Source: Nocardioides marmoribigeumensis
Lineage (GTDB): Bacteria > Actinomycetota > Actinomycetes > Propionibacteriales > Nocardioidaceae
Direction: 5' to 3'
NCBI RefSeq assembly: GCF_031458325.1
Contig: NZ_JAVDYG010000001.1
Location: 3,906,001 to 3,970,000 of the forward strand
DNA length: 64,000 nucleotides
How positions within the stretch are numbered: the stretch's first letter is position 1; each line of letters starts with the position of its first letter. Position numbers and translations under genes: made by a program. The notes below the pieces were generated by a model. The model was given only the letters and a program-made list of their open reading frames with translations, was not told the origin of the DNA and made no database searches. Shown one piece after another: positions 6,472 through 51,773 of this stretch.

Positions 6472-6771
6472 ATGCTGCACGACCGGGTCCTGGTCCAGCT
6501 GGACAACGAGGCCGGGGAGCGTCGCTCGTCCGGTGGCATCGTCATCCCGGCCACGGCGGCGGTCGGCAACCGGCGCCTGGCGTGGGCACGCGTCGTCGCG
6601 GTCGGTCCGCACGCCCGGGCCGTCGAGGTCGGCGACCGGGTGCTGTTCGACCCCGACGAGAAGGCCGAGGTCGACGTCAGCGGCGAGGGCTACATCCTCA
6701 TGCGCGAGCGCGACGTCCACGCGGTCGCCGCGACCCGGGTCGACGACAGCGAGACCGGGCTCTACCTCTGA
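6472..6771 (+). CDS. GroES-family co-chaperonin-like protein
   Basis: The 99-residue product (from ATG 6472) has the GroES fold signature: MLHDRVLVQLDNEAGERRSSGGIVIP, with the mobile-loop position, then GDRVLFDPDEKAEVDVSGEGYILMRERDVHAV. It is not accompanied by groEL, so it is likely a paralogue rather than the housekeeping GroES. The true start may be a CTG at 6454 that overlaps the DUF3618 stop (CTGA) and would add MKTPIR; no SD sequence favours the ATG. It ends just before the palindromic element at 6773. Confidence 0.85.
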   Translation: MLHDRVLVQLDNEAGERRSSGGIVIPATAAVGNRRLAWARVVAVGPHARAVEVGDRVLFDPDEKAEVDVSGEGYILMRERDVHAVAATRVDDSETGLYL

Positions 6772-6772
6772 G

Positions 6773-6860
6773 TCAGTTTCACTAGGTACCTAGTGAAACT
6801 GATACTTCCCGAGCGAAGTTTCGCTCGGGAGGCGACAACGTCACTAGGTACCTAGTGAAA
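6773..6860. repeat. palindromic element, copy 1 (palindrome - hairpin - palindrome)
   Basis: The element begins with a perfect 30-bp palindrome (6773-6802, centred on CACTAGGTACCTAGTG), continues with an 11-bp stem, 2-nt loop hairpin (6807-6830, CCCGAGCGAA-gt-TTCGCTCGGG) and ends with a second copy of the palindrome (18 bp perfect, 6841-6858). It occupies the whole gap between the stop codons of two convergent genes (6771 and 6868). Two further copies are at 47821-48149 and 51684-51773. It may act as a bidirectional terminator or be a REP-like or miniature mobile element; no open frame of its own is seen. Confidence 0.9.
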
Positions 6861-6867
6861 CCGCAGC

Positions 6868-7857
6868 TCACCCCCGCCGGGCGTAGGTGCGGTGCGACAT
6901 CCCCGGCAGCGGGTCACGGTTGAGGCCGGCGAGCTCTTCGAGGTCGCTGCGGGCGGGCCGCCAGGACGCGGCGCCGACGTTGCGGGCGACCTGGTCGGGC
7001 CGGGAGACCCCGGCGATGACGCTGCCGACGCCCGCCTGGGCGAGCAGGCCGCTGACGGCCAGGGTGAGCAGGTCGATCGCGCGGGAGTCGGCGAAGGCCT
7101 GGAGCGCGTCGATCCGGTCGAAGTCGGCGTTCTGGAGGCGGCGCCGCTGTCCCTCGGCCGAGAGCCGGCTGCCGGTGGGGGCGTCCTCGCCACGCTCGTA
7201 CTTGCCGGTGAGCAGACCGTAGGCGAGCGGGAAGTAGGGCAGCACGCTGAGGCCCAGGGCCCGGCACGCGGGGAGCAGCTCGTCCTCGGCGACGCGGTTG
7301 TAGAGGGAGTACTCGTTCTGCGCGCTGATGTAGCCGGGCACCCCGAGCTGTCGCGCCACGTGGTGGGCGTCGGCGACCTCCCAGGCCGCGAAGTTCGAGC
7401 AGCCGATGTAGCGCACCTTGCCCTCGACCACGAGCTCGCCGAGCGCGCTCAGGGTCTCCTCCATCGGCGTGACCAGGTCGGGCTGGTGCAGCTGGTAGAG
7501 GTCGATGTGATCGGTCTGCAGCCGGCGCAGGGATGCCTCCACTGCACGTCGGACGTAGCGGCGGGAGGCGCGCGCCCCGTGGTCGGGGCCGTTGGCGCCA
7601 TCCATGTCCATGCCGAACTTCGTCGCGACGACGACGTCCTGCCGGCGGCCCTGCAACGCGCGTCCCAGCATCTCCTCGCTGAGCCCGCGGCCGTAGGTGT
7701 CGGCGGTGTCGAAGAAGTTGACCCCCGCGTCGAGGGCGGCGTCGACGATGTCGTCGACGGTGTCCTGGTCGATGCGGGTGCCGAAGGCGTTGCACCCGAT
7801 CCCGACCATCGACACGACGAGGCCGGAGTCGCCGAGGGGCTGGTAGTCCACCATCAC
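6868..7857 (-). CDS. aldo/keto reductase
   Basis: This 329-residue NADPH-dependent oxidoreductase of the AKR superfamily has the TIM-barrel catalytic residues: D in FFDTADTYGRG, Y four residues later, K in ATKFGMDMDG and H in LYQLHQPD, plus the SNFAAWEV block after strand 6. The arrangement resembles the YajO/Tas-like and Kv-beta-related group. GTG 7857 and ATG 7854 are both possible starts; the ATG overlaps the stop of the lipoprotein gene, so the two are likely an operon. Substrate is unknown. Confidence 0.92.
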   Translation of the reverse strand: MMVDYQPLGDSGLVVSMVGIGCNAFGTRIDQDTVDDIVDAALDAGVNFFDTADTYGRGLSEEMLGRALQGRRQDVVVATKFGMDMDGANGPDHGARASRRYVRRAVEASLRRLQTDHIDLYQLHQPDLVTPMEETLSALGELVVEGKVRYIGCSNFAAWEVADAHHVARQLGVPGYISAQNEYSLYNRVAEDELLPACRALGLSVLPYFPLAYGLLTGKYERGEDAPTGSRLSAEGQRRRLQNADFDRIDALQAFADSRAIDLLTLAVSGLLAQAGVGSVIAGVSRPDQVARNVGAASWRPARSDLEELAGLNRDPLPGMSHRTYARRG

Positions 7858-47820: not shown

Positions 47821-48149
47821 AGTTTCACTAGGTACCTAGTGAATTTCTCACTCCCCGAGCGTTGCAACGCTCGGGGAGTGACAGTTTTGCCGGAGGAACG
47901 GTGACGCAGGAGCATCCTGGGTCGCGCGCCACTCGCCCTGGGTCCCGCCTCGGTGTCACCCGACACGAGGTACGACGGCGGGGCCGACCGTGCCCGACCG
48001 TGCCCGACCGTGCCCGCCAGCAGTGCCCGCCGGCCGGGCGCGCGCCGCTCACCGAGCCCACTGGCCGGCGTACCGCGGCGGAATTGGTACTTCCCGAGCG
48101 TTGCATCGCTCGGGAAGTACCAAAGTCACTAGGTACCTAGTGAAACTGA
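47821..48149. repeat. palindromic element, copy 2 (doubled, with an inner segment)
   Basis: The element starts with the 20-bp palindrome (47824-47843), followed by a 34-bp perfect palindromic hairpin (47848-47881, centred on GCGTTGCAACGC), then about 200 bp of unique sequence, then a second hairpin (48084-48123, TTGGTACTTCCCGAGCG with its complement) and the second palindrome (48126-48143). It fills the gap between convergent ettA and thiolase (stops at 47812 and 48155). The inner part has three tandem GACCGTGCCC units (about 47988-48017) but no supported gene. It differs from copies 1 and 3 in having two hairpins. Confidence 0.9.
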
Positions 48150-48154
48150 GCCCG

Positions 48155-49372
48155 TCAGCCCAGGCGCTCGAGGATGAGGGCCATGCCCTGGCCCCCACCC
48201 ACGCACATGGTGATAAGGCCCGTGGACTTGTCGTGGCTCTGCAGGGAGTTGAGCATCGTGGCCTGCAGGCGGGCGCCGGTCATGCCGAAGGGGTGGCCGA
48301 TCGCGATGGCGCCACCGTTGACGTTGAGCTTGTCGAGGTCGACGCCGAGATCCTGGTAGGACGGCACGACCTGGGCTGCGAAGGCCTCGTTGATCTCGAC
48401 CAGGTCGATGTCGTCGATCGTCATGCCGGCGTGCTTGAGCGCCTGGCGCGAGGCCTCGACCGGGCCGAGACCCATGATCTCCGGCGACAGGCCGGTCAGG
48501 CCGGTGGAGACGATGCGCGCCAGCGGGGTCAGCCCGAGCTCGGCGGCCCGGGTGTCGCTCATGATCACGACCGCGGCGGCGCCGTCGTTGAGCGGGCAGC
48601 AGTTGCCGGCGGTGACGACGCCGTCGGGGCGGAAGACCGGCTGGAGCTGCGAGACCGCCTCGTAGGTCACGCCGGCGCGCGGGCCGTCGTCGGTCGAGGC
48701 GGTCGAGCCGTCGGGCAGGGTGACCGGGCTGATCTCGCGGGCCCAGAAGCCCTCGTTGATCGACTTCTCGGCGAGGTTCTGGCTGCGCACGCCGAACTCG
48801 TCGAGCTCCTTGCGCGAGAGGCCGCGCATGCGGGCGACGTTCTCGGCGGTCTGGCCCATCGCGATGTAGGCGTCGGGCAGCTGACCGTCCTCGCGCGGGT
48901 CGTGCCAGTCCTTGCCGCCCTCGGCGTACTCCTTGGTGCGCGCGGCGGCGTCGTCGAACTTCGGGTTGCGCGTGTCGGGCAGGTGGTCGGAGGTGCCCTT
49001 GGCGAAGCGGGAGACCGTCTCGACGCCGGCGCTGACGTAGACGTCGCCCTCGCCGGCCTTGATCGCGTGGAACGCCATGCGCGTGGTCTGCACCGACGAG
49101 GAGCAGTAGCGCGTGATCGTCGTGCCGGGCACCTGGTCGAGCCCGAGCAGCACCGAGACGATGCGGCCCATGTTGTTGCCGGACTCGCCGCCCGGCAGTC
49201 CGCAGCCCAGGATCAGGTCGTCGATCGTGGTGGGGTCGAGCGCCGGCACCTTGTCGAGCGCCGCCTGCACCATCTGCGCGGTGAGGTCGTCGGGACGCAT
49301 GTCCTTCAACGAGCCCTTGTTGGCGCGGCCGATGGGGGAGCGGGCGGCAGAGACGATGACGGCCTCGGGCAT
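48155..49372 (-). CDS. acetyl-CoA C-acyltransferase (thiolase)
   Basis: The 405-residue protein has the thiolase catalytic triad: nucleophilic cysteine in [15 protein letters not shown], histidine in [12 protein letters not shown] and the second cysteine in [10 protein letters not shown], with the family start [16 protein letters not shown]. Start is ATG 49372. It may act in beta-oxidation or in acetoacetyl-CoA formation; no partner beta-oxidation genes are adjacent, but a double-hotdog thioesterase is divergent next to it. Confidence 0.94.
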
Positions 49373-51683: not shown

Positions 51684-51773
51684 TCAGTTTCACTAGGTAC
51701 CTAGTGACACTGACACTCCCCGAGCGAAACTTCGCTCGGGAAGCGACAAGATCACTAGGTACCTAGTGAAACC
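51684..51773. repeat. palindromic element, copy 3
   Basis: A 30-bp palindrome with one mismatched pair (51684-51713), a 10-bp hairpin (51719-51740, CCCGAGCGAA-ac-TTCGCTCGGG) and an 18-bp palindrome (51752-51769) repeat the structure of copy 1. Again it fills the whole gap between convergent genes (stops at 51682 and 51780). The loop sequences of copies 1 and 3 are different while the stems are kept. Confidence 0.9.

Follow-up and report, generated by a model that had tools for sequence, protein, structure and literature searches.

The analysed window is a stretch of 64,000 nucleotides (C1:3,906,001-3,970,000) from a one-contig 4.44 Mb genome, here referred to as G000. Its family is probably Nocardioidaceae, as weakly suggested by the best named relatives obtained with an antisense frame. 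It holds six exact copies of a 16-bp palindrome, CACTAGGTACCTAGTG, where 0.04 are expected and none of 100 shuffles reached six. Here we refer to this core as palA. The six copies make up three elements, which are located where the preliminary description had placed them: element 1 (6,777-6,860), element 2 (47,823-48,145) and element 3 (51,688-51,771), lying in convergent gaps bounded by gene ends at 6771 and 6868, 47812 and 48155, and 51682 and 51780, respectively. Gene calls come from a hexamer model of our own, for which G000 and its congener G002 served as training genomes and which was applied likewise to the other genomes. An Rfam scan of the window returned four tRNAs only.

Table 1. 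Parts of the three palindrome elements (positions in the window).
Feature	Position	Strand	Remarks
palA, left copy, element 1 (TTTCACTAGGTACCTAGTGAAA)	6777..6798		extended palindrome 6773-6802
40-bp hairpin spacer, element 1 (CCCGAGCGAA..TTCGCTCGGG)	6799..6838		
palA, right copy, element 1 (S form)	6839..6860		core 6842-6857; outer left bases imperfect
palA, outer end, left half of long-form element 2	47823..47844		10 bp past gene ending 47812
Hairpin spacer, left half of element 2	47845..47884	+	H+ orientation
Interior of element 2	47885..48083		orthologous site in congeners G002, G003 has nuclease gene
Hairpin spacer, right half of element 2	48084..48123	-	H- orientation
palA, outer end, right half of element 2	48124..48145		core 48127-48142; 9 bp from end of reverse-strand gene at 48155
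palA, left copy, element 3 (S form)	51688..51709		core 51691-51706
Hairpin spacer, element 3	51710..51749		
palA, right copy, element 3	51750..51771		core 51753-51768

A common palindrome-hairpin-palindrome design had been described for all three. This holds for elements 1 and 3, which consist of palA, a 40-bp hairpin and a second palA (S form) with a core spacing of 62 bp, and whose RNA folds lie 10-14 sd below those of shuffles; element 2, however, is made of two facing halves, palA-hairpin and hairpin-palA, 199 bp apart (long form). The two self-complementary flanking copies were also borne out as far as the six exact cores go, but in the right-hand copies of palA the palindrome is imperfect at the outer bases. 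The 40-bp spacer is a hairpin in which, across 83 spacers from two species, most paired positions are conserved and the loop is variable. Two-sided exchanges were detected in its stem, at positions 9/32 (T-A in 51 spacers, C-G in 19) and 4/37 (G-C in 49, T-A in 11); since the copies are related, these are not independent events, and the earlier claim of a kept stem with a varying loop stands with that reservation. Within the gene-less interior of element 2, a short tandem repeat of GTGCCCGACC occupies 47,987-48,020.

The search for further copies that the preliminary description had proposed revealed 56 exact palA in the G000 genome, against 0 for a reversed control sequence. Among 57 relatives, exact palA was found in the congener G002 only (19 copies), with 0 in the 56 others. 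BLAST with element 1 gave 81 rows in G000 and 88 in G002, and no rows in G001, G003 and G004; when grouped, the copies formed 40 pieces (G000) and 44 pieces (G002). Three forms were distinguished, namely S (palA-hairpin-palA), H (a palA-hairpin half) and long (facing halves), and typing anchored on the hairpin gave, for G000, 22 elements of the S form and 18 H halves, and for G002 15 and 28, respectively. By eye, a second GTACG-containing motif (palB) was seen internal to H halves.

Inside the window, the elements lie only between convergent genes, as had been claimed, but strict confinement to such gaps is ruled out by the genome-wide counts, at which 21 of 40 pieces in G000 and 29 of 44 in G002 are found in convergent gaps (background gaps, 86/520 and 81/445). 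A better rule for the placement is that palA faces a stop codon. A stop codon faces the palindrome within 30 bp in 44/62 cases in G000 and 44/59 in G002. The background in the same element-rich regions is 5% for random positions, and 35-37% when only those outside genes are taken. At the same distance and over both species, the palA end of H halves faces a stop in 37/46 and the inner end in 11/46, while 35 of the 37 S elements have a stop on at least one side. At four places (G000:1,667,805; 1,810,804; 2,449,820; 3,586,158) the gene calls extend into palA, so the palindrome's own TAG may serve as the stop codon, which suggests insertion into gene ends.

Two arrangements of facing halves were set apart from the others. 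At G000:2,091,932-2,093,424 (L036), two H halves face each other with a sigma-factor-like gene, so labelled from our own reading of its sequence, and a neighbour between them; it is possibly an element carrying other genes. The region G002 736,492-737,584, considered as a long-form copy, has a methyltransferase gene inside and was read as two separate halves.

The long form was also found with a gene. In G000, the long copy at 333,967-335,199 has a single gene inside, encoding 315 aa, and the long copy at 999,472-1,000,754 of G002 has a single gene whose product is 64% identical to it. G000 and G002 are the two genomes at which this gene, a predicted nuclease, was seen between palA ends, and likewise the only ones with exact palA among those compared. 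The G002 long copy is flanked by the same two genes as element 2 of the window (proteins 95% and 87% identical), and a related gene of G003 (56% identical, with different ends) lies at the same orthologous site. Thus, element 2 occupies a site at which two congeners carry the gene, and represents the form without it, with both ends retained. No convincing gene remnant was detected in its interior with a protein query made of P0001 to P0003 run together, a feature of the query that affects the choice of start and this remnant search only. Neither an AbiEii toxin partner nor a DDE transposase lies between the ends of the G000 long copy or its G002 homologue, the sole gene being one with AbiEi_4 and a Vsr-like fold. 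G002 has additional AbiEi-nuclease-like genes, each with different inverted ends of its own, at 3,805,423-3,806,309 (L170/L176), where the gene is split across two matches and may be broken, and at 3,478,897-3,479,769 (L174).

Pfam places an AbiEi_4 winged helix at the N terminus of the encoded protein and in 29 of 32 homologues; of the 32, 3 matched MTES_1575 and 2 matched DUF559; MTES_1575 is given as a Vsr-family REase in the accessible part of PMC3710099. The AlphaFold model (pLDDT 92) retrieved AbiEi (6y8q, E 1e-5) and Rv2827c (1zel, E 6e-5) with Foldseek, followed by weak matches (E 0.06 each) to the catalytic domain of I-Bth0305I (3r3p, TM 0.77 by target) and to Vsr (1vsr, TM 0.43 by target); the AbaSI profile match was also weak (E 0.38). 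From the fold alone, the C terminus is predicted to be a Vsr/EDxHD-type endonuclease domain. Residues E206, D238, E249 and D251 are invariant across the 32 proteins. The gene has a pN of 0.245 and a pS of 0.432 (pN/pS 0.57, corrected dN/dS about 0.46), values by which it is evolving under constraint. No NCBIfam match was obtained and PADLOC gave the AbiEi label alone, while a plasmid search returned 2 remote protein matches, annotated as hypothetical protein. In one family, 156 of 196 genomes have relatives of the nuclease, with 1-5 per genome (protein search, E up to 1e-20).

Inverted ends around these related genes were scored as the best ungapped inverted repeat between 620-bp flanks. Among 30 family loci, which are the best matches and not a random sample, 27 scored above 25, with 26 of these reaching at least 33, and 3 scored 25 or less. 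On the other hand, only one of 400 random genes, drawn from 657 with 80 named loci as a source, exceeded 25 (95th percentile 18); it scored 30 and is the gene in L036 between two element copies. Across the phylum, again among the best matches and with L328 omitted because it is our own gene again, 19 of 29 loci scored above 25 (17/27 outside the family) and 10 did not. A control of mismatched flanks contained orthologous loci, which spoiled it with scores as high as 399, and the 400 random genes took its place.

The strong arms are 33-110 bp long and mostly run from a palindrome into a hairpin, often centred on TTGCAA, with some imperfect. The palindrome differs by genome (GCAGGAATCCCCGGTCGACCGGGGATTCCTGC, GACTCCCCGCTCGAGCGGGGAGTC, TTCGCTACACGTGTAGCGAA, GAGTTTCACCGGGTACCCGGTGAAACTC and others), and outside the family a neat palindrome is often absent from the inverted ends. 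From our own reading of the gene lists, the nuclease gene lies between convergent neighbours at 29 of the 30 family loci, and the arrangement is mixed outside the family. Thirteen AbiEi/nuclease loci of G000-G004 were scanned with wider flanks. The ten beyond the three close ones had scores between 14 and 63, in some cases owing to tandem units, with L173, L177 and L178 at 18 or less; the wider flanks make these ten not comparable with the control, and they were not counted. Inverted blocks that resemble tandem short units, e.g. GCCGAGTCGGCGCTTGTGCACGC, flank more remote AbiEi/nuclease-like genes at L171, L172 and L175 (G001, G003), and look like another layout of the association between gene and repeat.

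The end repeats of other genomes are dispersed as well. Rows matching the genome's own end repeat numbered 47 in G200, 96 in G209, 33 in G017 (another genus) and 24 in G521 (another family), where both strands are counted and one place can yield two rows. Across genomes, the G200 query matched in 6 of 20 including itself (G171 24 rows, G190 22), the G209 query in 5 of 13 including itself (G202 14 rows), the G017 query in G017 alone out of 8, and the G521 query in 6 of 7, which are genomes of genus g36 (G529 34 rows, G600 32). Of the copies returned as loci and examined, a facing stop within 60 bp was present in 20/20 from G017, 10/12 from G209, 4/5 from G200 and 26/27 from g36, figures that stand without a random control and exclude the genes' own ends (L234, L304, L306, L206, L358, L364), the contig-end L257, L322 and L327. 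One G209 copy is inside a called gene, and one further g36 copy is on a short locus. At L351, L349 and L346 (genus g36, family f7), an end repeat of the GCGAGCGTGCGTGT type was seen in several genomes, dispersed and mostly after stop codons.

The nuclease gene has conserved sites and a conserved orientation in six site groups, which suits vertical inheritance as much as mobility. An apparent flip of the gene between orthologous sites was an artefact of unoriented loci, as the orientation was the same in every pair tested. The two ends of one locus have a similarity of 0.82 (21 loci), compared with 0.73 for same-site ends in other species (34 pairs), even with gaps allowed in the cross-species comparison only, which favours cross-species similarity. 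The greater likeness of ends within a locus, together with dispersed copies that match the local ends, suggests concerted change.

Turnover is faster for the short copies than for the nuclease gene. The comparison of sites used 28% of G002, enriched for that genome's own elements, in which 14 of 37 G000 sites were comparable through adjacent orthologous genes; 4 of the 14 are occupied in both species and 10 are unoccupied in G002. At 6 of these 10, the gene pair is adjacent with no palindrome, and the other 4 show additional genes or protein matches that are weak. In six aligned site pairs (five adjacent-pair sites and one weak), no target-site duplication was readable, the flanks having strongly diverged.

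As no Y1 transposase matched in the seven genomes searched and the product of the flanked gene combines an AbiEi part with a predicted Vsr-type nuclease, we take the window elements as members of the nuclease's system. They are probably gene-less, non-autonomous members of a nuclease-centred palindrome family of the REPIN/RAYT-like kind, with a gene-bearing form of about 1.2 kb, and we infer that the nuclease moves the repeats. The gene-bearing form would read palA-hairpin-inner sequence, one gene, then inner sequence-hairpin-palA. By analogy with AbiEi, which binds inverted repeats at its own promoter (according to the accessible part of PMC3985639), the AbiEi-Vsr protein may recognise its own palindrome and would cut at or near it; short derivatives could then be copied to other places when the hairpin-forming ends are repaired or replicated. 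S forms would result when the whole stretch from one end hairpin to the other is lost, and H forms when one end is lost. Copies would survive mainly just past stop codons because they do least harm there, and those surviving may then act as 3′ hairpins, with transcription termination as a possible side effect.

Perhaps the repeats are instead host bidirectional terminators spread by recombination, with the nuclease gene just one more gene fenced by terminators. The strong folds, the position just past stops, the palA end of H halves turned toward the stop and the enrichment in convergent gaps would all suit such a role. We consider it unlikely, since a scan of 6500-7200 around element 1 found no intrinsic terminator (GC hairpin with a T run), and terminators leave unexplained why one gene family in many genera has species-varying inverted flanks that match dispersed copies of the same genome, as well as the sister-species gene pairs without an element. 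Somewhat less likely still, the palindromes are binding sites at which the AbiEi-like protein organises the chromosome or regulates genes, and not products of mobility. An AbiEi-type winged helix together with perfect palindromes fits this, as does the reported binding of AbiEi to inverted repeats at a promoter (PMC3985639, as far as accessible), but the sites are mostly at 3′ ends, with only 3/40 (G000) and 3/44 (G002) pieces in divergent gaps, the 40-bp hairpin accompanies each typed copy, 10 of the 14 comparable sites are unoccupied in the sister species, and a conserved nuclease domain is needless for an operator. It is very improbable that a RAYT moves them as ordinary REPs, or that they are MITEs belonging to a DDE transposase, with the nuclease a bystander. 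They do resemble REPINs and TIRtrons (in the available text of PMC3733652 and PMC8049555), but no gene other than the nuclease lies between the ends in G000 or its G002 homologue, and the RAYT that had been suggested as a thing to look for was rejected on the absence of PF01797 (Y1 transposase) matches in 7/7 genomes, with a control search finding it in 5/14 known genomes. Of the earlier suggestion of REP-like sequences or transposase targets, this much stands: the repeats are dispersed and species-specific, and they share their sequence with the ends of an element that carries a gene. The enzyme itself is no RAYT.

Taken further, the elements may belong to a new class of mobile element widespread in Actinobacteria, an independent invention of the REPIN/RAYT kind in which an AbiEi-Vsr nuclease of restriction type reads its own palindrome, keeps its ends and the genome-wide hairpin derivatives in step while the palindrome changes in sequence, and places them after stops; on this wider proposal our judgement is evenly balanced. 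The preliminary description knew of no described family with such a structure, and our literature search, covering few subscription journals and no bioRxiv, agrees: it returned no paper with the palA palindrome and none combining DUF559 with inverted repeats, and in the text available from it nothing was recognised as linking a nuclease to palindromic repeats. The enzyme class is visible to Pfam as AbiEi_4 only and is tied to inverted repeats that vary by species. If the nuclease does mobilise the repeats, the class would be new among mobile elements and would provide a natural set of co-diverging nuclease-palindrome pairs from which to learn how AbiEi-type domains read DNA. Some of the palindromes at 3′ ends in actinobacterial genomes, which could be mistaken for host terminators, may also find their explanation here.

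Compared with known systems, the elements resemble MITEs in being short gene-less derivatives with the ends of a gene-bearing element, but the gene-bearing copy is without a DDE transposase and a target-site duplication was not seen in the diverged flanks. AbiEi antitoxins and Rv2827c share the N-terminal AbiEi_4 domain (29/32) and fold (6y8q, 1zel), whereas here there is no second gene between the ends and the C-terminal domain is nuclease-like. I-Bth0305I, an EDxHD homing endonuclease, has a similar predicted catalytic fold (3r3p, TM 0.77 by target length, E 0.06) and is likewise a nuclease joined to DNA-binding parts; it forms a dimer on a target almost 60 bp long, as stated in the accessible portion of PMC3943268. 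Unlike the EDxHD homing endonucleases, the nuclease here lies outside any intron or intein, with inverted palindromic flanks and dispersed gene-less derivatives.

The REP/REPIN-RAYT systems (REPtrons, TIRtrons) differ in that their flanked gene is a Y1/HUH transposase and not a predicted AbiEi-Vsr nuclease, and in that the outer palindrome here stands apart from an additional hairpin further in. By eye, neither a GTAG nor a CGTC tag was noticed in the listed palA copies; the CGTC REPs are a class without a known mover in what could be consulted of PMC3733652. Reported copy numbers of E. coli REPINs are 69-235, whereas tens are found here. On the other hand, as far as the accessible text of PMC3733652 and PMC8049555 goes, both consist of short palindromic repeats located between genes, often where the neighbours are convergent or in tandem, with inverted doublets as a main form and single halves as well, and in both a vertically inherited gene of low copy number has the repeats, or terminal inverted repeats, on either side. 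Dispersed palindromic intergenic repeats of the REPIN type are thus present in two species, as 37 S elements and 46 H halves.
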